Positions 14,980-60,904 of a stretch of 64,000 nt of DNA are shown here, one piece after another (within the stretch, counting starts at the first letter, position 1; each line of letters opens with the position of its first letter). Position numbers and translations under genes: made by a program. The notes below the pieces were generated by a model. The model saw only the letters and a program-made list of their open reading frames with translations. It did not search any database and was not told where the DNA came from. Source of the stretch: a virus. The stretch lies in the IMG/VR virus record IMGVR_UViG_3300007760_001422, positions 62,001 through 126,000 of that record. One strand, given 5' to 3'.

Positions 14980-17900
14980 CTAATCCTTATTTGGTGGCGC
15001 TATTAATTTGGGTTCATCCTCACAATCATCATCCTTGGTGTCTTTGGCATCGGAGTCCGGGAATAGATCTTCTATGTAGTTGTCTATTGCATCTTCGATA
15101 TCGTAATTTAATGCCAAATCAAGCGCCCACACCACTTGACCCAATTGGGTCCAAGCGCCATTCGTGCCAAACCATGGTGCAGGGCCGCGTTTCCAATTGG
15201 GTTTCATGCCGTCGATGCATGCACCACGCTTTTCGCCATCAGGACACTCCCAGCCCTCAATCAATGTCGCAATGCCTTTTAATATTTCCCATGGGGTTGC
15301 CATAAATATCGCAGCAAGATTAGGAGGCATGCCGGGAATAATCGGTATCTCAAATCCCAATCCGTGTTTATCTTTTGCCGCATCGGACATATCTTTTGGA
15401 TTTTGGGTTGTAACTTCATCGCGATATGTATACTCGTCACCAAAAGCATAATTCCTCAAGAGAGAAAATATTAAACTTTTTGTATTATCAAATTTTCCCA
15501 CAAACGCGGCATGCGAATCAAAGTGAGATATAGAATGAAGCATCATGGCTGCTGCTATTTTTCTAAGGGGGATGTGATCACTAAGTAATTTTGCTCTCAA
15601 TGTATCTTGATCAACAAACATGGCATGCATCAAGGTATTTATGGGATATTTTGCGTGGCAATAACCAGTCTTGGGATTGGTAAACGCCTCGAAGCCATAA
15701 GTATAGAAGTCGTTGAAATCTAAATCATGTATGGGTTGTTCTTCCGCATCTAACGGTATGGCATAGTGGATATTGCCAACGTTTGATTCATTAATATTAT
15801 GATGTGCTTGTCTTGGAGTGGTCCATGTTGTGTTCTTGTTGAGAAATTGATACATATGCATGGACAGCATTTCTTCATTCATCCAGAAGTCCACGGTACC
15901 GCCGCCACCGGTTACACGGCGCGCTTTAGAAAAGTTTTTCATTTCTTTTTCAAATTTTTCTGTTGAATTCCACATAAATTTCGTATAATATGATTTTTCA
16001 AGAAATGATATATCATTATCAACATATTGACCCCACAAGCTAGATTCCCATTCATCAGTAGCAAGAAACCCTGATTTTGCGGAAGAGCGTAGTTCTGCAG
16101 GCTGATTTTGTTCCGGAAGGACATACACCAATCTCAAACCCCAATCGCACGTGTTAAACAGATCAGTAAATTTAATTTTTGTTAACCAATCTTGTTTTAT
16201 GTCATAAGTCCCCAAGTTTGTACCAGAACATAGGCCCCAGCCGCTATCAACTTTAAGCTCGTTGTCGGGCACTGCAGAAAATATTTCGTGCAATTTCTGA
16301 ACGCTTACCACGCCTCTATAATTTAAGCCCATCTTCTTCAGCACTTTAGTCTCCGCTATTTGGCTCCAAGCGGAGTCTCTGGGGTGGCCGCGGCGAGCCT
16401 GTTTAATAAGCTCCGCATTGGCGGTTAATTTTACTGGACCGGAATTGGGCGCGGTCGGATCGGCGCCGGTAAGGCCGACAGGGTATTCTATGAAAGTATG
16501 CAGCAATGCCATCTGCCAAAAATCCTTTGAATGAGTCCACTCCATGCTCGCGAACGAACCCCAAGCGTGATTTATCGCCTCTGGCGTGAATTGGCCGGGA
16601 GTTGGATTCCCGGGATAATCAATAGTTGTTTGCATCAATTCCTTAATTGGTGCTTTTACCCCTTCAAGTCTCATATATTTTTCTAATATTAATTTTCCAT
16701 TTCTCTTTTCTAATTCGCTGTATAGTTCATGGCCGCCGGGCATATATATATCCATCGCAGAGCCGGGTATTTCACCAATGGACTCATCAGCCGGGGTCCC
16801 GTTTCCTTCCGTAACCCAAAAGTGCATGGTGTCTTGTTCATAGCCGGTAAATATACCGCCATCGCCCACAATAGTCATGTATGGATTAAAATACATATAA
16901 GGTATATCATGCACTTTATATGATCTGTTGTGCATATAGTACGCCTGTTCAATCCCCCTAAAAACCCGGTGAGTTCCAAATGCCGTAGATAATTCGTCTT
17001 CAAGCGATTTAATCATGGCATATGTTTCTTCATTGGCTAGCTGGTGTATTGCTTCCATGGGCTCTGATGTCGTCTCAAAAACACCCCTTTCTCTATTTCG
17101 AAATTCCAATAACGATATGGCAGAATCACCAATCACTTCCATTACCTCGTCAACCTCATGTAGCCCGTGAAAAGTATTACCTGCATTTTCAACAGATCTC
17201 CTAATCCATTCTGCAACAAAATCGGATACAATATCTTCTTTGAAAATATCGTATGAACCAAATTCAGTTAAAAACGGCAAGCACTTAAAAAACGTTTCCG
17301 TGATCGCTGTTCGAATAATCGCCAGAGTGAGCCCTTCTAATACAACCTGAACCACTGGATCGCGATCCCCTTTGGTTATCAGTTCTGATGTCTCTGGATC
17401 GCATGCATATTGGTTAAGTTTTTTGTACCGGTCACGCATCATATCCATAATCTGCTCTTCGTTTAAAAACGATGACTTTGGACCACAGCCATCGATTTCC
17501 TCTTGTCGGGTGGGGCCCGGTAAAAAGTCTAGTTTATTAAAATTTCTTGCAAGAAACAAAGGAGATTTTTGTATCAATTGACCAACCTCTCCAAACATGC
17601 AAAGGTTTAGTTTGGTATAAAAATCATTCTTGTCTTGGGCACCGCCCGGGAAGGAAGAATTGGGCCGGCCAAAAAACGAATCAATTATAGCTGTCGTTCC
17701 CTTGTCAATCCCGCCAACTTCCATCCATAAATTTTGGCCTAGGCGATTGTCTATATACTCTCCAAAATCTTCTTGAAGCTTGTTCTTACCTATGTTATCT
17801 TTCTCGCTTATATTTTCATCATTATATTGATAGATGATCGATTCATTTTCCACATCGGTCCATGGATTTTGCATAACGTAATGTGGGCTTGACACCCGTA

Positions 17901-20900
17901 CGCCCCATGTTGGATTTTCCGTATTCGTATGTCTAAGTTGCACAGTGTCCCCAACATCATAATAAGTTTTTCCATTTGGGCTTTCCGCTGGAGGGAAAGA
18001 GCGTAAATTATATGTGTCTGCTTCTCCCAACATGGCCCTGTAGTCAGCGAGAAGATATTTTGAAGAGCGTACGGCTGCCATGGCAACTTCCTCGATGGTT
18101 TTGCCGCTTTTCATAGATGGCATATCGTCACCCTCTTCTGCTTGGCCTATTTTCCTAGTGGCCTTTCCCATACCTGATGCAACAACGCCGCCTGTTACAG
18201 ACGGGCCAACAATGCTGCCTTGGGCAATTGATTTTTTTTGACCCTGAATACTTGAGTTATAAGACATGGATACTGCGCCCATTACTGATTCTAGAACCAT
18301 GTCCAACATAAAATTCATTGGGGCCGGATTCGGCGGAAACAATTGACAATTGTCTGGTATGTCAAGCGGCTTATTAGCAAGATCCTGTAGCTCTTTAATA
18401 CGATCTCTCACCCTTTGTTTCTCTGGGCCTAAAATATCTTTTATCTCTTGTGGAGTTCCCTCTTTGAAAATTTGAGCTGTTTCTGCAGCTAAACACGCAT
18501 CGTTAACAGCTTCTGGCGGAAAAGCTTGTATCTGTTCACATATTTCAGTTTGCAGATATTTTGCAAATTCGCCAAAGAAATCATTAATTTTTTGCTTACT
18601 ATAAAAATATGGCTCAAACTGCGGATATTGAGCAATGATTATATTTTTAATCATTTTAAGTGTCGCCGGTGAGGCCTCCCCTTGTAACAATTCACACAAT
18701 TCTATAGGGCTTGTTGCAACAGCTATATCTTCCACCATATCTTGTACGGGCTCAATTCCGTGATCTTGAAATATTTGTGCCACTATTGGTTCACATTGGG
18801 GCCCGAGGGCCTCACACAAAGTTATATCTGGAAGTGCTTGATTTGCAAGATCGTTTTGTAGTTCCTTACACGCAAATAACAGGGCCTCCAATAGAGCCCT
18901 TATCGCTTCTGCAATTAGCTTGGTTATAATTTGCTTAAGCAATTGTTCCGCTCTCATAATTATATAGCCCATAATATCGCTCACTGAAAAGCTGGAGAAT
19001 AAATCAAATTTTAAGCTAATGCTTCCGGAAAGCAAGAATTTGAGCATCCCCAAAAGAGCCATTATAGTGTCTTTTGCGACTTTAAATTTTTTAATCAAGT
19101 GTCGACATAGCTCATCTTTTTGTACATCGGTTAATCCATCAATGGCATTCAGCAGCTGCAGCTTTGCCTTTTTGCTAGAACCCATGGAAATACGAGGAAC
19201 GCTCATTGCAGCTGCATTTTGTTTTATGACGGCATCGCCCGCTACGATTTCAAGTTCTGTGAGGGTGCCAACTGCGTCATCTAAAGCTTGTTCAATCGGC
19301 TCACCATCTTCAGTATAATTATAATCTTCACCAACTGGTCCGAAGGCGCCCTCTACATCAACGCCTATCTTATCCGCTTCTACCGCCCAGCTTTCAAGTT
19401 CGGAATTCCATTGTGAGGTCTTTACTGCCGCTAGTACTTCTTTTCTGAAGGAGTAATTGTTGATCAGATCAGTTTGTGAATCTGTTCGCATTTTGGCGCG
19501 TGATGCCTCAGCTTTGGCTCTGGCTGCTTTTGCATATGCAGTTTGCGTTTTTTTATGAATCTGTTCTAGCTCTGACACGCCGCCGGCGAGTGCATTTGCA
19601 TTTGCCAATATACTGCCCATCAGGCCGCCGGCACCGGACGCTGCATCCAAGGAATTCATGAATATGGCGAGGCTTTGACCGCCATCTGTTTTTTCCAACT
19701 CGTCTAGCACCGCCTCACAAGCCAGCCTCAATATCTCATCCCAAGAGAGAGCAAGGCCTAGGCATCTCAATAATTCATTTACAATCCCTGCTAAATCATA
19801 TTTGTGTAAAAATTGCTGAAAAACGTCATCTAGGCCACTCATTGTGTCTAAAATGTTTTCTATGTCTTTAATATACCCAAGCGTATCTTTTCGGCCGCGG
19901 GCCCTTTTTGCGAGGCCTCTTTTAAATTCTTTTTTTCTTATTACTACGTCTTCTTCGGCTTTTTGAGATTCTGTTTTTTCTGATTTAGAATCCATCTGCT
20001 TGATTAATTCATCCAGTTTACTGGTGTCTGTTTCTTTATGTGGTGCCTCTTTTGTTCGAAGGGAAATACGGACGCGGGGGACAGTTTTAATAAATAAAGC
20101 AACAAATGTTTGCCAAGATGTATCTTGAATTGCTGATTGGGTCGCAAAAAATCTTAAAATCATAAAATATGAATCTTTTATAAGCGCATTGGCTGTTCTG
20201 TCTTCGAATATATCACCCAAGCAGGATTCTCCTATCCTAAGTGCCACAACTTCACTTCCTGATATTTCACCCTTGGTTGTCATTCTCTCAAAAGACATAT
20301 ATTCGGTGGTTGCAGCATCTTTAATCATTTGCATGCGCACCTCGGAAGCTATAGGATCCAGATCATCACTTTCTTGGTTAATGGCTATATATTGCACTGT
20401 GTAGTTTTCGCGAAATCCAATTTCAATTAAATCATCTTTGTTTGCCCTCCACTCAAGACCATTTATTTTTAAATGATTCTTTAATTTGGCCTTGAATGCT
20501 TTCATATTTTTTACCTCGACATTCAAGTCAACAGGTGGTTTTAATACAACTTCCTTCTGTTCCTCTATTAATCCTTGGTAATAGCCCATTATCACTTGTA
20601 GCGCACCCACAATAACATCATATGTCTTAGTGTTAACAACACATGTATATTTTGCCCTAGGGAGTTCAGGCATTGGAGGTGCGGGTGGTGCAAATTTTTG
20701 CCAGCCCTCATGGGGTACCCTGATCAAAAGCCCTGCTAGCACAAGATTTTTATCATAATACCAATATTTTCTATTATTAAGATTTTTAATAATCTTCTTA
20801 AATTGTTCTTCGTTTTTTAAATAGGACTGATACATATTCAGATCTCTATCATAATAACTGTATAGAAGATATAAGCCCTTGGCTGCAAAATATGTTAATA

Positions 20901-21984
20901 GCTGATTACCATCAATTTCTTCCAGTTCATGTTCTTTTTCTAGAGCAAACCAGTCCATCAATCCATCTGGATCATTCGTACTAACATGTATACATATGTC
21001 GTTAGTTTTTGGATCTATGTATGGCTCGCACTCCGTTTTATTAACCCATGGCGGCAAAATTGTATTTTTTAAACCCGGTGGTTGAGGGGGCGGCTCTATG
21101 TCCTTTTCCTCTTCTTTTTTACATTTAATTCCAGCAACGTTGCCGGATTTCCCGACCATTTCAACCACGCAGCCCTTGTAATCACCTTGCCACTTTTCCT
21201 GAACTGCCTTCCATTCTTCTCCCGCATACCCCTCGAACCCGGGGCGCTCACTAGCCCAATCTATCACTGCGGCAGATGCCATTAGGTGCAACCATTCTTC
21301 ATACTGGGCGCCGGTCATTTTTTCGCCCTTCATATAGCCGCTTTTGATTTTGCCTTTTATTTTGTCATACGGGGCATCCTTGGCGGCGATGTCATATTCT
21401 GCGTTATAGATCTGACTGGCTTCATCCAGATCGAATCCGATGTCAGGCCATGGAATGGGATCCGGAAGCAGGATGTGATTTAAATATTTTACCTTTAATG
21501 ATTCTACGTAGGCAGCTGCCTCTTTCCACTTATCTTCTGAAAATGGGGGGCCGAAAACTTTTTGTTCCTCAAATTTTGTAGTATAATTTTTTGTTGTGTC
21601 TTTGGCAACAGTGATCAGGGTTTTAATTGGAGGCTTTTTGCCATCACCTGTAGGCTCTTTAAGAAACTCAACTTCGATTACATATTTCTGTAAATCGGAG
21701 ACAAGTCCAGCTTTTAATTTGAGCAAATACTCCGCCGGCGTTGGCCTGTTTTTTACTGGGATTTCTAGCCATTCTTCTACTTTGTCATGGAAAAACAAAG
21801 AGCCCTTATTGTTGTATGTAGTCTTGTTTATACCGGCAAACGGTTCTGGCTTTTGCACGATGTCATCGTGGAGTTTGCGCAAGGCACTATTTCCAGCCAT
21901 GCCGGGTGAAATTAGGTCGTGAAGGCCGGGGTTGTCTTTAACCGGCCATTTTTTACCTTTTCTATCTGTATAGACTAAAGCCAT
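14980..21984 (-). CDS. Giant virion protein of unknown fold (2334 aa)
   Basis: I do not recognise this protein. It starts at ATG 21984 behind TAGGAG (spacing about six). The N-terminal 330 residues are rich in Lys, Pro and aromatics. Residues about 640-720 are highly charged. Residues about 800-840 form an Ala/Lys/Arg helix (AYAKAARAKAEASRAK) likely to coil. Residues about 970-1040 are strongly hydrophobic and helical (FLLSGSISLKFDLFSSFSV and following), which could be a buried coiled core or a membrane-active segment. The C-terminus is Asp-rich. It lies between the beta-rich spike protein and gp25, inside the baseplate operon. A tail-tube, hub or injected-protein role is possible; a classical tape measure would be more uniformly helical. 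Position and size make a virion role likely. Confidence 0.75.
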   Translation of the reverse strand: MALVYTDRKGKKWPVKDNPGLHDLISPGMAGNSALRKLHDDIVQKPEPFAGINKTTYNNKGSLFFHDKVEEWLEIPVKNRPTPAEYLLKLKAGLVSDLQKYVIEVEFLKEPTGDGKKPPIKTLITVAKDTTKNYTTKFEEQKVFGPPFSEDKWKEAAAYVESLKVKYLNHILLPDPIPWPDIGFDLDEASQIYNAEYDIAAKDAPYDKIKGKIKSGYMKGEKMTGAQYEEWLHLMASAAVIDWASERPGFEGYAGEEWKAVQEKWQGDYKGCVVEMVGKSGNVAGIKCKKEEEKDIEPPPQPPGLKNTILPPWVNKTECEPYIDPKTNDICIHVSTNDPDGLMDWFALEKEHELEEIDGNQLLTYFAAKGLYLLYSYYDRDLNMYQSYLKNEEQFKKIIKNLNNRKYWYYDKNLVLAGLLIRVPHEGWQKFAPPAPPMPELPRAKYTCVVNTKTYDVIVGALQVIMGYYQGLIEEQKEVVLKPPVDLNVEVKNMKAFKAKLKNHLKINGLEWRANKDDLIEIGFRENYTVQYIAINQESDDLDPIASEVRMQMIKDAATTEYMSFERMTTKGEISGSEVVALRIGESCLGDIFEDRTANALIKDSYFMILRFFATQSAIQDTSWQTFVALFIKTVPRVRISLRTKEAPHKETDTSKLDELIKQMDSKSEKTESQKAEEDVVIRKKEFKRGLAKRARGRKDTLGYIKDIENILDTMSGLDDVFQQFLHKYDLAGIVNELLRCLGLALSWDEILRLACEAVLDELEKTDGGQSLAIFMNSLDAASGAGGLMGSILANANALAGGVSELEQIHKKTQTAYAKAARAKAEASRAKMRTDSQTDLINNYSFRKEVLAAVKTSQWNSELESWAVEADKIGVDVEGAFGPVGEDYNYTEDGEPIEQALDDAVGTLTELEIVAGDAVIKQNAAAMSVPRISMGSSKKAKLQLLNAIDGLTDVQKDELCRHLIKKFKVAKDTIMALLGMLKFLLSGSISLKFDLFSSFSVSDIMGYIIMRAEQLLKQIITKLIAEAIRALLEALLFACKELQNDLANQALPDITLCEALGPQCEPIVAQIFQDHGIEPVQDMVEDIAVATSPIELCELLQGEASPATLKMIKNIIIAQYPQFEPYFYSKQKINDFFGEFAKYLQTEICEQIQAFPPEAVNDACLAAETAQIFKEGTPQEIKDILGPEKQRVRDRIKELQDLANKPLDIPDNCQLFPPNPAPMNFMLDMVLESVMGAVSMSYNSSIQGQKKSIAQGSIVGPSVTGGVVASGMGKATRKIGQAEEGDDMPSMKSGKTIEEVAMAAVRSSKYLLADYRAMLGEADTYNLRSFPPAESPNGKTYYDVGDTVQLRHTNTENPTWGVRVSSPHYVMQNPWTDVENESIIYQYNDENISEKDNIGKNKLQEDFGEYIDNRLGQNLWMEVGGIDKGTTAIIDSFFGRPNSSFPGGAQDKNDFYTKLNLCMFGEVGQLIQKSPLFLARNFNKLDFLPGPTRQEEIDGCGPKSSFLNEEQIMDMMRDRYKKLNQYACDPETSELITKGDRDPVVQVVLEGLTLAIIRTAITETFFKCLPFLTEFGSYDIFKEDIVSDFVAEWIRRSVENAGNTFHGLHEVDEVMEVIGDSAISLLEFRNRERGVFETTSEPMEAIHQLANEETYAMIKSLEDELSTAFGTHRVFRGIEQAYYMHNRSYKVHDIPYMYFNPYMTIVGDGGIFTGYEQDTMHFWVTEGNGTPADESIGEIPGSAMDIYMPGGHELYSELEKRNGKLILEKYMRLEGVKAPIKELMQTTIDYPGNPTPGQFTPEAINHAWGSFASMEWTHSKDFWQMALLHTFIEYPVGLTGADPTAPNSGPVKLTANAELIKQARRGHPRDSAWSQIAETKVLKKMGLNYRGVVSVQKLHEIFSAVPDNELKVDSGWGLCSGTNLGTYDIKQDWLTKIKFTDLFNTCDWGLRLVYVLPEQNQPAELRSSAKSGFLATDEWESSLWGQYVDNDISFLEKSYYTKFMWNSTEKFEKEMKNFSKARRVTGGGGTVDFWMNEEMLSMHMYQFLNKNTTWTTPRQAHHNINESNVGNIHYAIPLDAEEQPIHDLDFNDFYTYGFEAFTNPKTGYCHAKYPINTLMHAMFVDQDTLRAKLLSDHIPLRKIAAAMMLHSISHFDSHAAFVGKFDNTKSLIFSLLRNYAFGDEYTYRDEVTTQNPKDMSDAAKDKHGLGFEIPIIPGMPPNLAAIFMATPWEILKGIATLIEGWECPDGEKRGACIDGMKPNWKRGPAPWFGTNGAWTQLGQVVWALDLALNYDIEDAIDNYIEDLFPDSDAKDTKDDDCEDEPKLIAPPNKD

Positions 21985-43815: not shown

Positions 43816-44528
43816 TAACAGCCTTCTCCTTCTGGCCATGTCGACGGATCTTCATTAATGTGCATGTCTTCTCTAATGCCGCCATGGCGAATTCTAGTAA
43901 ATCTTATGGGGACTTTTTTAACTTTAACGCCTTGTGACTTGAGGTGTACATAAAGAGTTGATTCTGCATGTATTGTGAAGCCCTGAAGAGAATATCTCCT
44001 AATATAGTCCAATTCGCTCAAATATATATTCATATTGTTTCTATTACCTACAGCGAATCTATCATTATAGCCGTTTCCCTGCACAATACTCCAGCAATGA
44101 AAGTCTGGTATATATAAATAATTTAAATCATAACTGTCAAAATCTTCCGGTAAAGATCGAAAGTATTCTACATCTAGGCGAGATCTTATTATTCTGTCAT
44201 ATTGAAAGTTGTTTTCTTTTTCATGTTGTGTCCTCATTTCGTTGCATTTTTTCATGCCGCGCAGCATTTGCATATAACCTTGTAAACCTCCGCGTTCAAT
44301 GGCTTGCTGGTGAGTTATGTCGCTTTCATCAACGTGAACATCGGGCTCTACCCTTAAATCCGTGGCGACTTTTGACATGTATTTTTCTGCTTTAAAGGAA
44401 TCGTCGTTTTCTGAAATGTACATAAATATATCGCACTCCCCTAGGGGTTCTAATAAATATTTTTTGATATTTTCATGAGTGTGTTCTAATGACCTACACT
44501 GCCCCGTAAAACAAACGGCCGTCCTCAT
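43815..44528 (-). CDS. Putative glycosyltransferase-like protein (FTGQxR type)
   Basis: 237 residues. The N-terminus VCFTGQCRSLEHTHENIKK and the central NDRFAVGNRNNMNIYL resemble a family of uncharacterised proteins in polysaccharide loci, with RIIRSRLDVEY giving a possible nucleotide-sugar site (D in RLDVEY). It is probably a glycosyltransferase of GT-A-like fold, but this is weak. A TATAAATA sequence at 44539-44546 overlaps its ribosome-site region; coincidence is likely. It overlaps the aminotransferase gene by four bases. Confidence 0.6.
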   Translation of the reverse strand: MRTAVCFTGQCRSLEHTHENIKKYLLEPLGECDIFMYISENDDSFKAEKYMSKVATDLRVEPDVHVDESDITHQQAIERGGLQGYMQMLRGMKKCNEMRTQHEKENNFQYDRIIRSRLDVEYFRSLPEDFDSYDLNYLYIPDFHCWSIVQGNGYNDRFAVGNRNNMNIYLSELDYIRRYSLQGFTIHAESTLYVHLKSQGVKVKKVPIRFTRIRHGGIREDMHINEDPSTWPEGEGC

Positions 44529-45679
44529 TCGGCGCTCCTATTTATAGCATCACAAACTAGTTCAATTTCTTCTTTTGTTATATGATGGTTGTTGGGTATA
44601 TACATACCATATTCATGCACAAGCTTGGCATTTTTAAGATTTCGGCGGCCATATTTTTTAATCCACATCGGTTGCTCACTTAAAGAGCCGCAGATTAATG
44701 GCCTGTTTTCTACGTTAATACGATTTAAATTTTCTATAATTTTCTGCCTATTTGGGTGGATTATTGGATAAGCGAAATTTGAAACATAAGAACCTGCCCT
44801 TTCTGCTGGCTTCCAGTATGTGTTCTTAATAAGCTTATTATATAACTCGTAATTTTCATTTCTTTTTGTTACGATGTCTTCTAGCTTCTTTAATTGGCCC
44901 ATTCCTAAAAAGGCTTGCAGATCTGTTGCCCTAAAATTAAACCCGTAATAATAAAAAGTGTAAAGCGCATTAAAATCACTTACGTCATATTCATCTCTTA
45001 ATTGTTTTATTTTATATTCTTCCAGATCCCTGTCCCAACCATGTGATCTTAACGCCTTAAGAACATTAAACATCTCCCTATCGTTGGTACAAACCATGCC
45101 GCCCTCTATCGTAGAGATGTGATGACCAAAGTAAGTTGAAAAAGAAGACATCAAGCCAAAAGAACCTATCTTGCTCTTTTGGTGTTCCGAGCCCAATGAT
45201 TCACAAGAATCCTCCAATAAAACAACCCCATTCTCGTTGCACAGCGTTTTGATTTCTTTCATGTTGGGTACAAGCCCGAGAACAGAAACTAACATCAATA
45301 CTTTGGGTGATTCTTTTTCTATTAATTCTTCAAGATGCTTCAAATCAACAGACAGATCTTCCATATTACAATCACATAATACTGGTTCCAATCCCAGCTG
45401 CACCACAGGAGCGAGATCTGTCGACCACGATAATGCAGGTACCACAACTTTGTCACCCTTGTTGATAATTCCGCTTTCTATCATACTATAAAGCATTAAT
45501 AAGTTAGCAGAAGAACCAGAATTGACAAAAACTGCATATTTAGTGCCCAAATATTTAGCCCACTCTTCTTCGTATTCTAAAGTTAGTTCACCTTTTGTCA
45601 ATCTGGGATAAGTCGACAACCAGCCTATCAGTTCATCGATGTCGCCATTATCTATTGTGTCATTAACTAACTTAATCAT
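44525..45679 (-). CDS. ColD-like DegT aminotransferase homologue with His at the PLP-Lys position
   Basis: 384 residues of the DegT/DnrJ/EryC1 fold. The segment SFSTYFGHHISTIEGGM has His186-His187 where aminotransferases have the PLP-binding Lys; aligning on EGG puts His186 at the Lys position. In ColD (GDP-4-keto-6-deoxymannose 3-dehydratase) and RfbH this replacement turns the enzyme into a PMP-dependent C3 dehydratase. Since Gmd in this cassette makes GDP-4-keto-6-deoxymannose, a 3,6-dideoxy sugar of the colitose type is a reasonable product. VNSGSSANLLML and LLEDSCESLGS are family landmarks. It follows the Per-like gene with an 8-base overlap. Confidence 0.85.
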   Translation of the reverse strand: MIKLVNDTIDNGDIDELIGWLSTYPRLTKGELTLEYEEEWAKYLGTKYAVFVNSGSSANLLMLYSMIESGIINKGDKVVVPALSWSTDLAPVVQLGLEPVLCDCNMEDLSVDLKHLEELIEKESPKVLMLVSVLGLVPNMKEIKTLCNENGVVLLEDSCESLGSEHQKSKIGSFGLMSSFSTYFGHHISTIEGGMVCTNDREMFNVLKALRSHGWDRDLEEYKIKQLRDEYDVSDFNALYTFYYYGFNFRATDLQAFLGMGQLKKLEDIVTKRNENYELYNKLIKNTYWKPAERAGSYVSNFAYPIIHPNRQKIIENLNRINVENRPLICGSLSEQPMWIKKYGRRNLKNAKLVHEYGMYIPNNHHITKEEIELVCDAINRSAE

Positions 45680-46781
45680 TTTTCTTTCCTTTAAAGTACT
45701 CGAATATAGATTTTATCACATAATCTTGTTGTTCTTTAGTTAACATATAAGAAGATGGCAATGATATCCCCCTATTATAGATATTTTTGCTAACAGGGCA
45801 AACATTAACTTTAAACACACCCTTGTAGCAAGGTTGCATGTGCAGTGGGTGGAAAAATATTCTTGTGCCTATGTTTTTAGATTTTAAATATTCAATCAAC
45901 TCATCTCGATAATCTGTCATAAAAGAGGTAAACCAAAAAACTGGTCTTGTCTTTGGATCAATATATACTGGTTTAAAATATTCTTTAATTGGTTCAAGCT
46001 CTTTAACATATTTGTCATGTATTTTTCGTTTCTTTTTTATTATCTTATCCAACTTATGTAATTGAGATATGCCAATCGCTGCTTGCATTTCTGTAAAACA
46101 AAAATTATACCCTATATGATCATGAATAAAAACACCTTTTCCATCTCTTCCATGGTTTTTTAATCTATAGCATGCCTTTGCCAGTTCGTCATCATCTGTT
46201 ATGATAACACCACCCTCTCCACAAGTAATAGTCTTGTTTCCATAAAATGATAAAATTCCCATATCTCCATATGTGCCAACATGCTTTTTATTATAAAAAA
46301 CACCAACACCTTGAGCGGCATCTTCTATAACCTTTAAAGAATATTTCGATGCCAGCTGCATTAAAATCCCCATTTCAGCACTTTGGCCATAAAGATGCAC
46401 CGGCATTATTGCCTTTGTTTTATTTGTAATAAGTTTCTCTACCTTGGAGATATTAATGCAGAAAGTATCTTTTCTGACATCGCAAAAAACAGGAGTGGCG
46501 CCAGCCATTATAACTGCATTTGCAGTTGCGATAAAGGTCATATCTGGTACTATTACTTCGTCGCCCGGGCCGACGCCTATAGCCTTAAGACAGCTATACA
46601 GTGCGACTGTGCCATTTGTCATGGCAATTGCGTGTTTGGAGCCTGTAAGTTTCCTTATAAGTGCTTCAAACTCTTTTGTAAGCTCATTTTCAGTGACATA
46701 GGTAGAATCGATAACTCTTTTAAGCTGAATCAACTCTTTCTCGTCAATCCATGGCTCAATCTGCGGTATATAATCCTTCAT
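45672..46781 (-). CDS. DegT-family aminotransferase, perosamine-synthetase-like
   Basis: 369 residues from ATG 46781; a GTG at 46811 is open but lacks a ribosome site. LSFYGNKTITCGEGGVIIT contains the PLP lysine (residue 183 from this start). NGTVALYSCLKAIGVGPGDE, PDMTFIATANA, PVHLYGQSAEM and VIEDAAQGVG are typical. The FYGNKTIT-x-GEGG wording is characteristic of GDP-perosamine synthase (Per/RfbE), which aminates the Gmd product at C4. Another 4-amino-sugar (for example a QdtB- or LegC-type acceptor) cannot be excluded. Overlap with the upstream small gene is 26 bases. Confidence 0.87.
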   Translation of the reverse strand: MKDYIPQIEPWIDEKELIQLKRVIDSTYVTENELTKEFEALIRKLTGSKHAIAMTNGTVALYSCLKAIGVGPGDEVIVPDMTFIATANAVIMAGATPVFCDVRKDTFCINISKVEKLITNKTKAIMPVHLYGQSAEMGILMQLASKYSLKVIEDAAQGVGVFYNKKHVGTYGDMGILSFYGNKTITCGEGGVIITDDDELAKACYRLKNHGRDGKGVFIHDHIGYNFCFTEMQAAIGISQLHKLDKIIKKKRKIHDKYVKELEPIKEYFKPVYIDPKTRPVFWFTSFMTDYRDELIEYLKSKNIGTRIFFHPLHMQPCYKGVFKVNVCPVSKNIYNRGISLPSSYMLTKEQQDYVIKSIFEYFKGKKND

Positions 46782-47142
46782 AAGATTTTTGTTCTTTGAC
46801 CAAGGAGTCACAATGATTGTTTATTTTATTTTTAATTAAAAACCTTTGATCATTCAACTTTGCATCAAGCCTTGCGTGCTGAACAAAGGTTTCATCAAAA
46901 TCTTTGTTTTTTTCTTTTAGTCGGATGACATCTTCAGTGTCCCATAATTTTTCATTGACTTCTTTTAGCTGTTCAATATATTCTTTAGGTACTTCTACTG
47001 CACCTTCTTTTAGGGCGTCACTCAAAAGTAAAAGTTCTGTCTCTATATGTTGTAGCTTTGCTTTATTTTTTATTTTTTCTTGTTTAATTTTTAGGATGGT
47101 GATCTTATCTACCACTTCTCCAACTGATACATCAATTTTCAT
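46756..47142 (-). CDS. DUF6165-like coiled-coil protein
   Basis: 128 residues beginning MKIDVSVGEVVDKITILKIK, the pattern I know from a small uncharacterised family (DUF6165) found in polysaccharide gene clusters. It is predicted to be almost entirely helical, with heptads at residues 20-60 and 75-110. No enzyme motif is seen. It may be a structural partner of a glycosyltransferase; position is the only support. Confidence 0.7.
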   Translation of the reverse strand: MKIDVSVGEVVDKITILKIKQEKIKNKAKLQHIETELLLLSDALKEGAVEVPKEYIEQLKEVNEKLWDTEDVIRLKEKNKDFDETFVQHARLDAKLNDQRFLIKNKINNHCDSLVKEQKSYEGLYTAD

Positions 47143-48013
47143 AAACGCTCTTTATACTCTCTATGTGTGTCTTTGCTCGTAAAAAGTTTTCTACATTGCT
47201 AAAATCAAAATCCATGTTTTTGATGCGATTAAAGAACGTATCATTTATTTGCTCCCACGAATCAACAAAGATTCCCGGAAGTTTATAATATTCAAAAACC
47301 TTTTTAATCGTTGAATCCTTCATTATTGGTACGCTTCCAACTAATAAAGACTCATAGTTTCTATGCGTGTCTGGACCCGAGCCCTCCAAACAAATTATAA
47401 ATTTATAACAATCCATGGTCTTTAAATATTTTTCAATAACCATTTTTTCACTTTGCGATGTTACAAAGCTCAAATTGTTTAAATACTTCAAAGACTCTGC
47501 TCTATTTGGATTTGTATTGACAGTGTGATATGGCAGGAAAACAAGCTCTTCCTTATCTTCAATTTGTTTTCTTTCTAGTCTACACCTATTGAGCACTGCT
47601 TGATTGCCGCCGACGCGGGCTGGTTCTTCAAAACCAATTGGCAAAGGAACAATTTTTTCATTTTCAATATCGGGGGGGTTTGTGCAATACCATTTTTTAA
47701 GTTTTGGGTTGTTAAGGATTTCCTTATAAGCATCTCCCCCATCTCTTCCAATATGAAAAGAGGAATTACCAGTAACAAGACTAAAATTACAATCAATCAT
47801 CGGCATGTAGCCCTGTCTAAACGTATCATTAACTATAAAGTCTGTTTTCACAAAGATAACATCGTTCTGTTCCACATCTAAAGGATCAAACGGTTCGTGT
47901 TCGTGTAGCCTTTTTACTCCCCACCCTTCGTAAAATTTCTCTGACGCGTCTAGAGCGTGGTTTGTTGCTAGCGGCAAAAAATTATAACATATTAAAAAGT
48001 CATTATTTACCAT
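47132..48013 (-). CDS. Exostosin-like glycosyltransferase
   Basis: 293 residues from ATG 48013, which overlaps the previous gene by seven bases; a GTG five codons upstream is also in frame. The C-terminal ICLEGSGPDTHRNYESLLVG followed by SVPIMKDSTIKKVF has the pattern of GT-B exostosin (GT47) or GT10-like donors: E/R pair, NYE, then xVP(I/V). The N-terminal half lacks a clear motif. A cytoplasmic glycosyltransferase is likely; the donor is unknown. Confidence 0.65.
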   Translation of the reverse strand: MVNNDFLICYNFLPLATNHALDASEKFYEGWGVKRLHEHEPFDPLDVEQNDVIFVKTDFIVNDTFRQGYMPMIDCNFSLVTGNSSFHIGRDGGDAYKEILNNPKLKKWYCTNPPDIENEKIVPLPIGFEEPARVGGNQAVLNRCRLERKQIEDKEELVFLPYHTVNTNPNRAESLKYLNNLSFVTSQSEKMVIEKYLKTMDCYKFIICLEGSGPDTHRNYESLLVGSVPIMKDSTIKKVFEYYKLPGIFVDSWEQINDTFFNRIKNMDFDFSNVENFLRAKTHIESIKSVYEN

Positions 48014-49401
48014 GTCACTTCTTTCCACTCTTTCTGTGTACTGTTTCCTAAATAGGATGATGCGCCATCTCTAAAATTATGAAAATAAAGCTTTCCTTTG
48101 GTGTCCAAGGTTTCTACCAGCGATCTAAAACAACTTTCCATACAATGTATTTGTTTTGCATTTTCTAACAACTCGCAAAAATGAAATAAATTTTCACTCA
48201 TATCATTTCTTATTATCTTTACGTCTTCAGAACAAAATTCTTTGATTTTCTCTTCGGTTATCTCAAAACCACGGGCGGAATCATCATGTACAAAAACATA
48301 TTCTTGCCCTTCTGGATTTAGTTTTTTCAACAATCTGTTTTCTTCTGCAGGTTCTCTTTCGAAATGAAATCTATTAAACCGTTCCTTATAATTTAAACCA
48401 ACTTGTTTATAAAATATTTCTGCACAACCCATTTTAAGTTCTTTTTCTTTTCCCCATGGATAATTCTCATGGCCGATGCGGAGAAATTTTACATATTTGT
48501 CTTGTGAAGCTTTTTCCATATATTCTTTAATTTCTTCGTATTCATTGGCTCCGGGGATTTCTATTACTTCTATTTTAGGCTCATCGCGATACATAAATTC
48601 AATTAAGGAGAAATATTTCTTCTTGGCAAATACGTGCACCTTATCGAACCTATAATCGTTTAAATATAACCTAGTCATTCCATTACAATCAATATGATCC
48701 CCCAAGCCTAGGTGGGTGTGCAAATAAAGCTCATTAGAAGAGGCATTAATTACCCGTTCGAGAGCCTGATCGTGCTCTTCCACTGGATTGTCGTTTTCAT
48801 CAAAAACGCGGCCAACAAAATCTAACCCTTCTCGCTTGGAGGGAAACCCTCTACCAAAAAAGAACTCGTCATGGATCATAACGTCTTCTGGAGAGATAAT
48901 TGGTTGTATCACATTCATAAAAAATTCATAATCTGTGCCATATTTATCTACAGCCCCATGTCCTTCTATTAATTTTTTTATGTTCGGAATAGTGCCTTTT
49001 TTGGCACCCCACATGCCGCCTAAAATCGGAAACTGATGATAAGGGTGGTCCCTCATGATGTGGAATGTTAGGTCACTAGCCTCCCATTCATCTACTGCAT
49101 GGCGCTCTCTTAAACTAATTCTAGAATCTGTGTCTCTAGAAATAAAGATATCGACATCTTCTTCAGATGCCGGCTCGAACCTCCAAAACATTGATTTCCA
49201 GTCACCTATTTCATTCTTTTTAACAACCTCCACATTCTCAAATTCTTCCAATTGTGTAATTATATTAACAGGGACGGTAGCATCAACATAAAATCTGCAC
49301 TTCCATTCCGGATATATCTCTTGTGCTAATTTTGCATTTTTAATGGCACCTACAGTATATTTTGGATCGACACCCCATAGTGAAAAAGTTATTAATTTCA
49401 T
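48007..49401 (-). CDS. Two-domain glycosyltransferase (GT-A plus heptosyltransferase-like domain)
   Basis: 464 residues. Residues 1-215 start MKLITFSLWGVDPKYTVGAI and contain FISRDTDSRISLRER near residue 90, with a DxD-type DTD. Residues from about 225 begin LHTHLGLGDHIDCNGMTRLY, the GLGDxI start of heptosyltransferase-like GT-B proteins, and end near SCFRSLVETL. This looks like a natural fusion of two transfer activities that would add two sugars in sequence, although the second domain may be non-catalytic. The ATG follows the stop of the next gene's reading frame by overlap with the 657-residue GT gene. Confidence 0.68.
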   Translation of the reverse strand: MKLITFSLWGVDPKYTVGAIKNAKLAQEIYPEWKCRFYVDATVPVNIITQLEEFENVEVVKKNEIGDWKSMFWRFEPASEEDVDIFISRDTDSRISLRERHAVDEWEASDLTFHIMRDHPYHQFPILGGMWGAKKGTIPNIKKLIEGHGAVDKYGTDYEFFMNVIQPIISPEDVMIHDEFFFGRGFPSKREGLDFVGRVFDENDNPVEEHDQALERVINASSNELYLHTHLGLGDHIDCNGMTRLYLNDYRFDKVHVFAKKKYFSLIEFMYRDEPKIEVIEIPGANEYEEIKEYMEKASQDKYVKFLRIGHENYPWGKEKELKMGCAEIFYKQVGLNYKERFNRFHFEREPAEENRLLKKLNPEGQEYVFVHDDSARGFEITEEKIKEFCSEDVKIIRNDMSENLFHFCELLENAKQIHCMESCFRSLVETLDTKGKLYFHNFRDGASSYLGNSTQKEWKEVTW

Positions 49402-51371
49402 GCTGCTACATGCTCCACTGATTTAGATGAGTATTCATTAAACACTTTCTTCTCCTCTTCCTGTTTCCAATCAAAATTTTCTGGATTTGTTGAAATCCCT
49501 GTCGGATTAAAATAATATAATCCTAAAATCTTATCGATCTTTTTAAACACTGAACCTTTCGAGGCGGCGCGCAGCCACATCTCCCAGTCCCCTGCTGAAC
49601 GATATGAGGTATCGAAAAAGCCAAATTTTTCATGAACCGTTTTTCTCCACATTGGATTGCTATGTGGCATGTTTACCATTTTTAGTTTATCATATGAAAA
49701 CTGTGGGAAATTATATCTTTTCCCATTCGAACTATTTTTATCAAACGTTTCATTTGGCTGATCTGTGATGAAGAGATCTGCGTAAACCAATTCAACTTCT
49801 GGGTTCATATAAAGTTCTTTTGCGTGTAGTTCTAAACTATTGATGGCCTTTCGATCATCTAAATTCGCATTTGTAAAATATTCGCCGCTAGCTAATTTTA
49901 GCCCAACATTCCACGCCCCATAAATACCCGGGTCTTCATCCAACTTTTCATAAATTATGTTGTCATATTTTTCCATGTACCTTTTGATAACCGTCTCTTC
50001 GTTGCCGGGCGAATTTGCATTAACTAAAATTAATTCACACTTATCAAAAATGGTTTGTTGCGTGATATCTTCTAAAAATGATTCTATGTACTCATCTCCG
50101 TCATAAACGGAAGTAACTATAGAAATTTTAGGTAAATCTTTTTTGTCAACTTTGGTAAGGGTAGAACCATGAACAATTTCTGCAAACTTTTTGTATTGTA
50201 TCTCGTTCGTAAATGTTTTAACTAAATATTTCTGCAAATCTTTAGCTTGTTTTTTAAAACGACCATGGTCTTTGTAAATTTCTCTTAATTTCATTTTATA
50301 GCTACCCTGTTTTGGATAACACCACATGGAATCTGCTTGTATTACGCCATCCCAGACTGCCTCTGGTTGGACCGGAGAAAGATCATATTCTACTTTTGCG
50401 AAACAAGGTCTATTTTTAATTTTTCCAGAGTTCGTCTTTTTCGGCATATATAAGAAATCAACATGACCGCTCCAAGCGGGAGCAACCACTGGTAACCCAT
50501 AATAAGCTGCTTCAAACAATGGAAGTCCAAAACCTTCTCCATGGGCTAATGATACTAATGCTTTGATTTTTGGATGACAATATAGTCCCGCCATTTCTTC
50601 CTCGGTCATATCACCGTGCATCAGATATAATTTGCACTTTCTATCCTTATACTCGGGTGCTTTTAGAAGATTTTTTAATCTTCCTTCTGTGTGAACCAAG
50701 TCCATATTGGAATTGTTGCGCGTATTTAGTTTAACAACCAGACCAACTTCACGGTCAATAAATTCTTCCAAGAACCATCTAATTGTATTATCAATATTTT
50801 TTCTAGGGCCCCATTGAGCCACCACCAAAAAATTAAAGTCTGTTTTTAAATCTATAGAAATATCTGACGGCTCGTATTTTCTGACCGGGTAACCAACTAC
50901 TTCAATTGGAGTTCCGCAGCTAAGTCTTACATGTTGGCCATCCGGGCCAGTGGCGTCATAATATGTATTTTTATATGATTTTTTAGAATGTTCAGAAATT
51001 GTGACAATTTTATCCACCAACATTCCCTTTTCAATCCAAACGGGGGCAATTTTAGTTGTTTCTATTCCCGCAGTGACGCCTATATTTTCAGGTGCTAATT
51101 TTTCCCATTCGTTTGGTATTGTAACCTGCACCGACGTGTCATATCCTAGGCCGTTTTGATTACGAGCAATATGCTTTCTTAAAAGCTCATCGATATAACG
51201 CCTCTCTTCATCATCTTTAAAGATCCAGCCAGTTTGACCCCAATTTGTATTGATCAGATAAACATCAAATTGTTCTTCATATTCTTTTAATGCTCTTAAG
51301 ACGAATCTAGTGTGTTCGCCGTAGCCGCTTCTAGACAAAGCAGGCCCTCGAACTAAAACAGTTTTTTTCAT
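49398..51371 (-). CDS. GT4-GT2 fusion glycosyltransferase
   Basis: 657 residues. The N-terminal 400 residues are a GT-B fold of family 4: GPALSRSGYGEHTRFVLRAL, then LVVAQWGPRKNIDNTIRWFL and SLAHGEGFGLPLFEAAYYG, the E(x7)E donor-site pattern. From about residue 415 a GT2 domain begins: PKISIVTSVYDGDEYIESFL, VNANSPGNEET, NANLDDRK (DD pair) and WEMWLRAASKG. The two domains may add successive residues of a repeating unit. The gene is coupled to both neighbours by 4-base overlaps. No membrane helix is visible. Confidence 0.88.
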   Translation of the reverse strand: MKKTVLVRGPALSRSGYGEHTRFVLRALKEYEEQFDVYLINTNWGQTGWIFKDDEERRYIDELLRKHIARNQNGLGYDTSVQVTIPNEWEKLAPENIGVTAGIETTKIAPVWIEKGMLVDKIVTISEHSKKSYKNTYYDATGPDGQHVRLSCGTPIEVVGYPVRKYEPSDISIDLKTDFNFLVVAQWGPRKNIDNTIRWFLEEFIDREVGLVVKLNTRNNSNMDLVHTEGRLKNLLKAPEYKDRKCKLYLMHGDMTEEEMAGLYCHPKIKALVSLAHGEGFGLPLFEAAYYGLPVVAPAWSGHVDFLYMPKKTNSGKIKNRPCFAKVEYDLSPVQPEAVWDGVIQADSMWCYPKQGSYKMKLREIYKDHGRFKKQAKDLQKYLVKTFTNEIQYKKFAEIVHGSTLTKVDKKDLPKISIVTSVYDGDEYIESFLEDITQQTIFDKCELILVNANSPGNEETVIKRYMEKYDNIIYEKLDEDPGIYGAWNVGLKLASGEYFTNANLDDRKAINSLELHAKELYMNPEVELVYADLFITDQPNETFDKNSSNGKRYNFPQFSYDKLKMVNMPHSNPMWRKTVHEKFGFFDTSYRSAGDWEMWLRAASKGSVFKKIDKILGLYYFNPTGISTNPENFDWKQEEEKKVFNEYSSKSVEHVAA

Positions 51372-52630
51372 GCTACTTCCTTAAAATGCCAAGCTTGGTA
51401 ATTCTTTCTTTCAGACCAAGAGCCGTGTTCTTCATATACTTTGAGAAGGATTTCTTCCCAACTTTTACAAAAGTTTTCATAATTATAATTTTTCATGACA
51501 TGCTCCCTTCCAAGCTGGCCCAGCTTTTCGCGCTCTTCGCTTGTCATATTATAGATTTCTAATAATCCATTGACCACTGATTCTTCTGATAGCCTGTCTT
51601 CATATATCCACGGTATTTCTTGGGAGCCAATTATCGCTTTAGAATCGGGCTCTAAACCAATACCAAAATACTTTTCTCCATCAGTGACTTGTTCCTGCAG
51701 ACCGCCAGTCATATTGACCATTATTGGTGTTCCACAAGCCAAAGATTCAAAGGTCGCCAGCCCAAAACCTTCAGCGTCAGATATATTAATCGTGCAATCT
51801 GCCATATTATAAATCATCGCCAAATGTTCCATGGGTAATTTTTCTCTAGATAAAAGCACCTGACCGTCTGAAAGCTTTAAAAAATCCAATATTGCTACCA
51901 GATCTTGGCCGTTATGATCTTTGGGTTCAGTGTGCATGATCAAACATGCCTTGTCGTGCCCAACAATGTCTAAAAACTTTTTAAACCAAAATATTAAACT
52001 GCCCGATTGTTTTCGGCGTGCATTTCTATTGTTCCAAACAAAAACCACCTTATCAGAATTTTCTGGGCCCAAGTGTTCGTTTCTAAAGTTTTCAACATCT
52101 TCTTTTGGGTACGGCTTATAAACATCTGTATTGACAGAATGTGGCAAATAAACAGATTTAACGTCTGGTGATACTTTTTGAACTATATCATGTGTTACTT
52201 TCGATATACAAGCAATCAAGTCGTTGCTGTCATAAAAGGGTTTATTGAAATGTGGAGGGGGATAATTGTCCCAAACATGATAATATACCATTGGCATAAG
52301 TGGTCTAATTTCATTTTCCATACCCCATAACCAGCCCCAAAATCTTGGATCGGTCATAAACCACAGCATATCCGGCTTTTGAGTTCGAATCGCAGAACGA
52401 ATCATGTCAGGGTTTCCATATCCATCAACAGGATATATTAGCCAATCTTCTCCCCACTCATCAGTTTGAACAGGTGTATAATCATTATGTTTTACTGCGC
52501 CAGCAAAGCTTATAAAGCTAAATTTCCCTGTTTTAAGTAGAGCATCAATCATGTATCTACTTTGTGTTCCAACGCCAGACGGTGATAGTGGGTGATCACT
52601 CAACGTTAATATTTTAATCTTTTTATCCAC
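51368..52630 (-). CDS. Glycosyltransferase family 4 protein
   Basis: 420 residues, GT-B fold: the N-terminal LTLSDHPLSPSGVGTQSRYM, and in the C-terminal half VVFVWNNRNARRKQ and ISDAEGFGLATFESLACGTP (EGFG...E donor site). The protein is the first gene transcribed in the glycan cassette, 10 nt downstream of the PD-(D/E)XK gene. The donor sugar is unknown. The start ATG 52630 follows AGAGG with a normal spacing. Confidence 0.88.
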   Translation of the reverse strand: MDKKIKILTLSDHPLSPSGVGTQSRYMIDALLKTGKFSFISFAGAVKHNDYTPVQTDEWGEDWLIYPVDGYGNPDMIRSAIRTQKPDMLWFMTDPRFWGWLWGMENEIRPLMPMVYYHVWDNYPPPHFNKPFYDSNDLIACISKVTHDIVQKVSPDVKSVYLPHSVNTDVYKPYPKEDVENFRNEHLGPENSDKVVFVWNNRNARRKQSGSLIFWFKKFLDIVGHDKACLIMHTEPKDHNGQDLVAILDFLKLSDGQVLLSREKLPMEHLAMIYNMADCTINISDAEGFGLATFESLACGTPIMVNMTGGLQEQVTDGEKYFGIGLEPDSKAIIGSQEIPWIYEDRLSEESVVNGLLEIYNMTSEEREKLGQLGREHVMKNYNYENFCKSWEEILLKVYEEHGSWSERKNYQAWHFKEVA

Positions 52631-52639
52631 GGATACCTC

Positions 52640-53425
52640 TTATGTGCAATGTTGGGTGTTGAAAAAATCACACCCAGTACAGGATAACCTGTTTTTTATA
52701 TATCTTTTTTCATTAATATTATAAAGCGCTTTTTCCAATAATTTAATAGCATTTTGTGTTTTTATTTTTCCGCTCGAAACTCTGAATAATTCTGCGTTGT
52801 TTTTCTTTGCCGTTCTCTTAAGAAGTGCAAAATGAGTTTCTATCTTGTCTGGATCTATGCCATGTTTTATCGCAAAGAACTTTTTATAAAGAGTTAGCTG
52901 ATATGTTGTTATTTTCTCTGTTTTTCTTTTTGCGTCCCAGCCCCAAGAACAACTTTTCCAATCAATAATGTGATATTTTCCATCTTTGGTTTTTAGGACC
53001 AAATCTATATACCCTTTAAAATCGTGATGATTGGTGTTGCTGTCAATTAAATCCCCAATTGGTTCATAAATTTTTTCTTCAACGGCGACGACCTCGTATT
53101 CATCAAAATAATCTTCTAGTGCTGGTAAAATATATTTAGTTAAGGGTGTGCCCTGTTCTCGCATACTATTGACTAGCCCTTCTCGTATGGGCACGTCAGA
53201 GGGTAGTGTTTTAATTTCTTGTGCAAACCTCTCTAAAAAGTATTCTGGGGCTTCTTCTTCTTTTATGACTGCTTGCACTAGTGCCTCACACACACTGTGA
53301 ATGGCAGTTCCAAAGGCTGTAAATTCATTGCCTTTAAAGCCCTTAATTTTTTCGATATTATTTAATTTGTGGTACCAAGAACACTTGTTCCAATTTTTTA
53401 GTTCTGAAAAGGATATATGGGGCAT
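52640..53425 (-). CDS. PD-(D/E)XK nuclease, RecB/Cas4-like
   Basis: 261 residues starting behind AGAGG at ATG 53425. Motifs: ISFSELKNWNKCSWYHKL at the N-terminus, GTAIHSVCE (catalytic Glu), FKGYIDLVLKTKDGKYHIID followed by WKS (the D ... D-x-K core, here IDxK with WKS) and TYQLTLY. Cys14 (NKC), and CTGC plus a final C at the C-terminus, could hold an iron-sulphur cluster as in Cas4/AddB. In cyanophage-like myoviruses such nucleases are thought to process DNA ends in replication or packaging. The fold is clear; partner and role are inferred. Confidence 0.85.
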   Translation of the reverse strand: MPHISFSELKNWNKCSWYHKLNNIEKIKGFKGNEFTAFGTAIHSVCEALVQAVIKEEEAPEYFLERFAQEIKTLPSDVPIREGLVNSMREQGTPLTKYILPALEDYFDEYEVVAVEEKIYEPIGDLIDSNTNHHDFKGYIDLVLKTKDGKYHIIDWKSCSWGWDAKRKTEKITTYQLTLYKKFFAIKHGIDPDKIETHFALLKRTAKKNNAELFRVSSGKIKTQNAIKLLEKALYNINEKRYIKNRLSCTGCDFFNTQHCT

Positions 53426-59871: not shown

Positions 59872-59917
59872 TATTTAAATTGATTATTTTTTAAGATTTA
59901 AAGATGGTGTGTAACGA

Positions 59918-60380
59918 TGGAGGCGTCGGGGTTCGAACCCGAGTCCAAAATAATTACGTCATACTGCTTTTTAACAAGAATAGACAGCCCGCCTCCTTGA
60001 CTGTCGGCCACCCGGTGCGCACGCGACTTAGTCGGGGAATCCATTTACCAAATAATTTCGCTATGGGTATGACTCATAGGGTCATTAAGTATAGCCTAGA
60101 CCTTGGCTGGCCATGAATGTTGCCCAGCCGATTTTAATGCCTTCTTTACGGCCACAGCTGAACTAGGTTATTCGAACCCTTAAAAACTAATATATGATAT
60201 CGTATATACTACCGAATTAACTTTTTTAATAAAGTGTTAATGACTTCAGATTATGCCGCAATGGCGTAATCAATTTCAACGTTATCGTTGGCATTTATAA
60301 AATTTAAGTTTTTTTATTGTGCTACTTTCACAATCTTGTACAAAATGATTTCATTACTCTGTCGAAGCCATTTCGCCCCC
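59918..60380 (-). ncRNA. ssrA: tmRNA (SsrA), one-piece, phage-encoded
   Basis: A complete 463-nt tmRNA, 5' end at 60380 and discriminator A at 59918. The 5' end GGGGGCG pairs with CGCCTCC at the 3' end over seven base pairs, with G3-U70 as in tRNA-Ala, which alanyl-tRNA synthetase needs. The discriminator is A73; CCA is not encoded (TCG follows). The T-arm is canonical: TCGGG, loop TTCGAAC, CCCGA. GGCTTCGACAG matches the usual D-loop analogue near the 5' end. The tag frame reads ANDNVEIDYAIAA-stop (60251-60292). Three hairpins suit pseudoknots: CTATG/CATAG (60061-60079), GGCTGG/CCAGCC (60105-60129) and GACAG/CTGTC (59983-60005). The one-piece form argues against a permuted alphaproteobacterial or cyanobacterial type. 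It would rescue stalled ribosomes and tag the peptides. Confidence 0.95.
60251..60292 (-). other. tmRNA tag-peptide reading frame
   Basis: Resume codon GCC at 60292 and TAA at 60253-60251 enclose 13 codons: A-N-D-N-V-E-I-D-Y-A-I-A-A. The last residues, YAIAA, are of the Ala-Ala ClpXP/ClpAP degron type. Compared with the E. coli tag (ANDENYALAA) it is longer and has IAA for LAA. Its position, roughly 90 bases from the 5' end, is normal. Confidence 0.93.
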
Positions 60381-60574
60381 ATATCAAAGAACATATACCG
60401 CAAAGGTGTTGATTCTTCACATCAACAATGCTAGGCTCCTTTTAATTGAGTTACCTCTTCACGAGAGCCATTGAAGATCTAATTGTTAATCCATATTATA
60501 TTTAAATCCATTCTAATTTTAGCCTTTGCAATTTTAGAATGTACTATCTTTTATTTATATTATATGATTATATA
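60381..60574 (-). other. Gap before tmRNA: leader and small hairpins
   Basis: 194 bases without a gene. Minus-strand reading gives two hairpins, CTCT/AGAG around CGTGA and GTTGAT/ATCAAC around GTGAAGA (ending about 30 bases before the tmRNA), and an AAAAGGAG that precedes no usable open frame. I see no tRNA. If the promoter at 60559-60585 is used, this is a 5' leader of about 170 bases that RNase P or another nuclease must remove. Confidence 0.5.
60552..60559 (-). promoter_or_regulatory. T4-late-type box TATAAATA upstream of tmRNA (candidate)
   Basis: TATAAATA on the minus strand, overlapping the -10 region of the sigma-70-like promoter by one base. It is 172 bases before the tmRNA 5' end. 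A gp55-like sigma is encoded in the window, so the tmRNA could be expressed late as well as early. Confidence 0.4.
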
Positions 60575-60585
60575 TCATGTGTCAA
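60559..60585 (-). promoter_or_regulatory. Sigma-70-like promoter for the tmRNA (candidate)
   Basis: TTGACA (60580-60585) and TATAAT (60559-60564) on the minus strand, both perfect matches, with a spacer of 15 bases, shorter than the best 17. Reading the -10 as TAATAT (60557-60562) gives the 17-base spacer instead. The -35 overlaps the last codons of the Fis-like gene. The start would be near 60550. Confidence 0.55.
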
Positions 60586-60904
60586 GCTTTTTTACATATT
60601 TTTTTACGTATTTTCGAAAATCCTTTGGTGAAAGGCCTAACATGGCAGCTGCCTCTTTTTTGGTTCGGGCCGCAGACAAAGCATATGTAAGTAATGCTTC
60701 ATTAACAAATTGTTTAACTGAATAAAATATTGGCATGCCATATAATTTAGCGCCAAATAGTCGACTGGATATTTCTAATTTTAAAGCTATTATTTCTTCG
60801 AAGCTTAAAGAAGCTAGCATAATTTCGAATTCATCATTAATTTTGTGATCTTTTTTTAAAGTATTAGCAATATTATAATTTTCTATAGAGTCTTTTTGTT
60901 TCAT
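60575..60904 (-). CDS. Fis-like helix-turn-helix regulator
   Basis: 109 residues. The C-terminal RTKKEAAAMLGLSPKDFRKY has the Fis/HTH_8 recognition helix pattern (xxxAAxxLGLSxxxxRxxxK). The N-terminal half is charged and helical, probably for dimerisation. It lies directly upstream of the tmRNA and may regulate it or the early genes. No ribosome site precedes ATG 60904, but a TATAAT at 60911-60916 stands exactly where a leaderless transcript would start. Confidence 0.75.
   Translation of the reverse strand: MKQKDSIENYNIANTLKKDHKINDEFEIMLASLSFEEIIALKLEISSRLFGAKLYGMPIFYSVKQFVNEALLTYALSAARTKKEAAAMLGLSPKDFRKYVKKYVKKLDT

Follow-up and report, generated by a model that had tools for sequence, protein, structure and literature searches.

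A predicted one-piece tmRNA gene and a structured RNA ahead of it in an uncultivated T4-type phage

Transfer-messenger RNA (tmRNA) genes are known in phages, although they are uncommon there: ten phage tmRNAs were listed in 2014 (PMC4131195), and a 2022 count gave 402 of 18,146 phage genomes (2.3%; PMC9004378). Complete tmRNA genes are carried by mycobacteriophages Bxz1, Catera and Wildcat and by Bacillus phage G (PMC4131195). In marine Melnitz-like phages they have been called common, and two-piece phage tmRNAs come mostly from marine and aquatic phages; that of methylophage Melnitz, a large T4-like myophage, is reported to be a permuted two-piece molecule whose 3′ domain holds a glnA-type riboswitch (PMC9004378). 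The locus described here lies in a 64,000-nt stretch of DNA (the window), which comprises bases 62001–126000 of the 131,445-base virus record IMGVR_UViG_3300007760_001422. Judged from sequence and relatives, it most probably holds a functional one-piece tmRNA gene of a large T4-type myovirus, standing behind a promoter and a 148-nt structured RNA (probability of about 0.87). Since phage tmRNAs are already known, the gene is one more case and is not new in kind; the novelty lies in the RNA ahead of it, a well-supported candidate family without an Rfam entry.

The sole gathering-level Rfam match in the window (cmscan) is the tmRNA family RF00023, with 82.8 bits (gathering 47, E 1.3e-30). It covers the full model length (model positions 1–374) at 60380..59915 on the minus strand, to which all features of the locus given below belong, and it is the only tmRNA in the whole record. 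The 463-nt one-piece tmRNA in a phage genome proposed by the initial annotation is thus borne out by Infernal, the program named there for this purpose, as a mature RNA at 60380–59918; the strand had to be corrected to minus. An RNA ending in CCA had also been expected. The bases following the mature 3′ end are TCG, and CCA, not being encoded, must be added post-transcriptionally.

Direct reading agrees with the initial annotation on the G3-U70 acceptor, A73, the perfect T-arm and the tag ANDNVEIDYAIAA. The acceptor stem is formed by GGGGGCG (60374..60380) and CGCCUCC, the latter followed by A73 (59918..59925), and has seven pairs including G3-U70. The T-arm UCGGG-UUCGAAC-CCCGA (59926..59942) has a stem of five pairs, all of which covary among relatives (5/5), and its loop UUCGAAC contains the UUCGA characteristic of tmRNA. 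Pseudoknot PK1 (60306..60334), composed of P3 (6 bp) and P4 (4 bp), precedes the resume codon. The tag frame (60251..60292; GCC AAC GAU AAC GUU GAA AUU GAU UAC GCC AUU GCG GCA UAA) has the features expected of a tmRNA, namely an alanine resume codon, a short peptide ending in AA and a stop. The long variable middle (PK2–PK4 region, 59981..60250) is aligned by the RF00023 model at low confidence. Part of it is an extra RNA domain (59981–60130), in which the motif GGTAAATGGATTCCC...GGGTGG occurs together with several small hairpins; about 15 relatives share the domain, and shorter ones lack it.

The G3-U70 acceptor, T-arm, D-loop, helix H2, PK1 and tag frame with its stop are shared with bacterial one-piece tmRNAs (RF00023). 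Unlike these, the window copy is phage-borne, has a long divergent middle, does not encode CCA and carries a tag pattern that was not found in the genomes searched. The permuted two-piece model RF04321, which overlaps the 5′ half, reached 38.4 bits against a cut-off of 47 bits and was rejected; the 3′ half of the acceptor is on the downstream side, and upstream no T-loop can be seen.

A search with phoH yielded 80 related viral contigs, and 50 of their records were searched whole. A tmRNA above the cut-off (76 to 118 bits) was present in 20 of the 50, near phoH as in the window record, and all 20, reached without use of a tag pattern, encode tags ending in AA. The initial annotation had stated that tmRNA genes are reported in only a limited number of phages; they are indeed uncommon, but with the 2022 count and these 20 records the rarity was overstated. 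A tag-pattern search gave 54 viral contigs. In total, 51 distinct tmRNAs of 243–471 nt were collected, differing in length mostly in the middle, and every one has G3-U70, A73 and a 7-bp acceptor, the adjacent acceptor pairs changing by compensation. The tmRNA DNA of the window had no similarity match among 50,697 phage records.

Covariation was examined in an alignment of 33 phage sequences over 35 pairs of the acceptor, H2, PK1 and T-stem. Both sides changed with pairing kept in 24 of the 35 pairs, compared with 12.6 ± 1.3 in shuffles and at most 12 in slid controls. Acceptor pairs 1–7 are kept in 33/33 sequences, at positions 4–6 through compensating changes, and G3-U70 is invariant throughout. 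The PK1 helices P3 and P4 are 93–96% paired, with both-side changes in 8 of 10 pairs, and the outer H2 is 86% paired. Covariation and the invariant G3-U70 exclude a chance origin of the structure. At L117:4024-4456 and at loci L106, L233, L235 and L238, the T-arm is otherwise intact but its loop is unusual (of the GGCAGUA or AGUCGGU type where UUCGANN would be expected).

The window tag is exactly repeated in one relative (L117). The 13-residue tags (n = 43) are near-identical, and their differences are mostly synonymous or to similar residues. Because the search pattern did not cover the last three residues or the stop, the conservation of these is no search effect. Among 84,980 bacterial and archaeal genomes, none matched the phage tag codon pattern; since some codons are fixed in it, recoded tags would escape it. 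A looser ANDNV[DE] pattern, tried for host assignment, led to alphaproteobacterial, myxobacterial and other tmRNAs. No host was assigned, since these carry different tags and the full pattern finds no genome.

Several points weigh against a functional tmRNA in the window. ARAGORN, also named as a check in the initial annotation, missed the tmRNA, probably because of the long, divergent middle, and gave no hit elsewhere in the window or the record. The RF00023 score of the window copy is below that of all but two of the above-cut-off relatives, and its H2 is partly unlike theirs, owing to an insertion of about 9 nt on the 3′ side. As many relatives were fetched by the tag pattern, the conservation of the first 9–10 tag residues is in part a search effect.

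The structured RNA directly upstream (60394..60541, 148 nt, two pseudoknots) was absent from the initial annotation. It also precedes the tmRNA in ten further phages, which were initially recognised by eye. In the window it lies, co-oriented, between the tmRNA and a promoter-like site (TTGACA-17-TAATAT, 60557..60585), which would give a leader of about 170 nt before the tmRNA. This site (60585–60557) overlaps the end of a small helix-turn-helix (HTH)-like gene. Taken by itself, the promoter scan does no better than chance; in most relatives that carry the element, a TTGAC-type site is found at the equivalent position 3′ of the HTH gene. The HTH-like gene (60575..60904, 109 aa; weak PHROG HTH match, E 0.006) ends 194 nt ahead of the tmRNA and is a conserved neighbour, its motif being found upstream in 35 of 45 tmRNA loci.

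The element was aligned in nine copies with 31 pairs; the first alignment misplaces L117 (P_A/P_B) and L169 (P_C), which lowered the counts. Paired cells amount to 93.7%, compared with 83.7% in shuffles and at most 50% in slid controls, and both-side changes occur in 15 of the 31 pairs (shuffles 6.4, slid controls at most 5). One pseudoknot arises from hairpin P_A, the loop of which takes part in P_B, the long helix that closes the element (5′ strand AUUGCAAAGG, 60523..60532; 3′ strand CCUUUGCGGU, 60397..60406). The other is formed by hairpin P_C (CUUCA/UGAAG), whose loop pairs as P_D with a downstream GARYC; here, GGCUC (60465..60469) pairs with GAGCC (60434–60438). Among relatives P_D covaries as GGCUC/GAGCC, GACUC/GAGUC and GGUUC/GAACC. 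Hairpin P_E (GUUGAU-GUGAAGA-AUCAAC, 60408..60426) has a loop of the GUGAAGA type, and its tested pairs are 100% paired in the nine copies.

P_B was also checked in 31 copies, where its own partner mostly beats nearly all foreign partners and nearly all shuffled tails; five of the 31 failed. The window element has a fold z of −2.86 and scores 118.7 bits with covariance model R1, in which the window copy itself was included. Searched alone against Rfam, glutamine riboswitches included, the element had no match up to E 10, and in relatives only tmRNA-type models overlap it, via the adjacent tmRNA. Its identification as a known riboswitch was rejected, as no riboswitch family matches.

Further copies were sought with a covariance model from the nine copies and with two DNA patterns. 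The element is found in three contexts: before the tmRNA, directly before tRNA-Gly(UCC), where it also stands behind an HTH gene, and alone. Standalone copies have their own promoter, P_B closure and a terminator-like end, often with a U-run, and two of them (L217 and L218) are followed by a separate promoter for the next gene. A broader model applied to 50 records found one copy in 17 and two in G051, one before its tmRNA and the second standalone (L278, G051:161780-161928). One copy per genome is weakened as proof of trans action by these two copies and by the fact that many records are fragments. In records G022, G058, G059 and G060 the tmRNA has no element in front, mostly its own promoter there, and the element is elsewhere. 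A search of 21 bacterial genomes was empty, which counts for little.

The window locus differs from those of Bxz1, Catera, Wildcat and phage G in lineage and in having a structured RNA between the promoter and the tmRNA. As in Melnitz, the tmRNA of a large T4-like myophage is associated with a second structured RNA; in contrast to Melnitz, the tmRNA is a single piece, the second RNA lies ahead of it, and no glutamine riboswitch model matches. Phage T4 RNA C and D and GOLLD are structured phage stable RNAs beside tRNA genes. The element resembles them as a structured phage RNA beside tRNA-type genes, and it is set apart by the lack of an Rfam match, T4 RNA C and D being outside this comparison.

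The tmRNA is very unlikely to act as a decoy, or to be a decaying copy, titrating SmpB like the tRNA-like domain (TLD)-only RNA of mycobacteriophage DS6A. The low model score of the window copy fits such a role, and TLD-only RNA strongly inhibits tmRNA (PMC4131195), whereas in the window PK1 and the tag frame with its stop are intact, as is every pair of the acceptor and T-arm. Recent capture from a host, or a remnant of the attachment site of an integrating phage, is the least probable alternative: the full-length gene keeps its synteny with phoH and the HTH gene across many related phages and has diversified with covariation, and its tag pattern was not found in the bacterial and archaeal genomes searched. 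Such lineage-wide, diversified copies disfavour both versions.

A further alternative concerns the small-RNA part of the explanation and not the tmRNA. The element could be a cis-acting attenuator or riboswitch, in which P_B forms the stem of a terminator and transcription of the tmRNA or tRNA-Gly depends on a ligand or on an event at the ribosome; this is conceivable, with the odds leaning against it. Its place between the promoter and the tmRNA or tRNA suits such a function, as do a U-run after P_B in L157, L169, L221 and the tRNA-linked copies and the glutamine riboswitch reported with the Melnitz tmRNA (PMC9004378). However, no long U-run follows P_B in the window and no riboswitch family matches. 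The standalone copies with a promoter and a terminator-like end, two with a separate promoter for the next gene, and the four records that keep the element away from the tmRNA also speak against gating. The same standalone copies and four records favour an element acting in trans, merely co-transcribed with the tmRNA here. We read it as a phage RNA not previously described. The chances are about even that it represents a novel class of noncoding phage RNA, built on two interlocking pseudoknots, that acts in trans and is made either from its own gene or by RNase P cleavage from tmRNA and tRNA-Gly precursors.

The tmRNA would be read from the promoter behind the HTH-like gene, on a transcript beginning with the 148-nt structured RNA. 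Host RNase P would trim the tmRNA 5′ end, and this cut would release the upstream element as a separate small RNA. CCA would be added by a host enzyme, and host alanyl-tRNA synthetase would charge the G3-U70 acceptor. SmpB was searched for in the record and not found, and ARAGORN found no tRNA genes there, so host SmpB is needed; it would bring the tmRNA to ribosomes that have stalled on broken mRNA, and the tag added there would mark the nascent protein for host proteases. The most likely role of the tmRNA is to keep ribosomes available during mRNA degradation in infection. The freeing of ribosomes and the redirection of tagged peptides, both proposed in the initial annotation, would follow from the anatomy and from what is generally known of trans-translation.

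Phage hallmarks of the record are a large terminase, portal, T4-type capsid protein, tail sheath, baseplate wedge proteins and UvsX. The phage location given in the initial annotation holds, and the record is assigned to a large T4-type myovirus of an uncultivated lineage. No isolate has a capsid protein close to that of the record; the best match reaches about 50% identity across 63% of the protein, and the closest isolates include Flavobacterium phage immuto, Microcystis phage Mel-JY01 and Rhodothermus phage RM378. The tmRNA has as neighbours a DoxX-like membrane protein, peptide deformylase, a trypsin-like protease and PhoH. Elsewhere in the window, two very large phage genes lie on the minus strand at 692-11047 (3451 aa) and 14980-21984 (2334 aa). 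Two aminotransferase-like, two glycosyltransferase-like and one exonuclease-like gene at 44525-53425 suggest sugar or surface modification.

Two arrangements were observed in relatives. At twelve tmRNA loci (L119, L127, L131, L132, L133, L138, L144, L148, L154, L014, L091, L105), not including that of the window, the HTH reading frame enters the tmRNA, with its stop codon 28–37 nt inside. Processing of the tmRNA 5′ end would leave such an HTH message non-stop, a substrate for trans-translation. Control of the HTH message by this route, comparable to arfA, is an idea only; arfA mRNA has no stop codon and is subject to repression by trans-translation (PMC10107115). At eleven loci (L231–L241; also L099, L102), a 63–65-codon protein gene with its own ribosome-binding site (Shine-Dalgarno) sits within the tmRNA gene, where it separates the tag half from the T-arm half. 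Its variable sites (n = 27) fall at codon positions 3/1/2 as 19/4/4, and with 19 at third positions the protein appears to be under selection. In relatives that lack this insert (L090, L097, L103) the tmRNAs are minimal, at 243–250 nt.

The element is repeatedly tied to RNAs of translation, tmRNA and tRNA-Gly, in an uncultivated T4-type lineage. This provides a concrete target, namely what the phage gains from the element and why it travels with ribosome rescue. The relatives offer two testable arrangements, a protein gene nested in a tmRNA and a regulator whose stop codon lies inside one.
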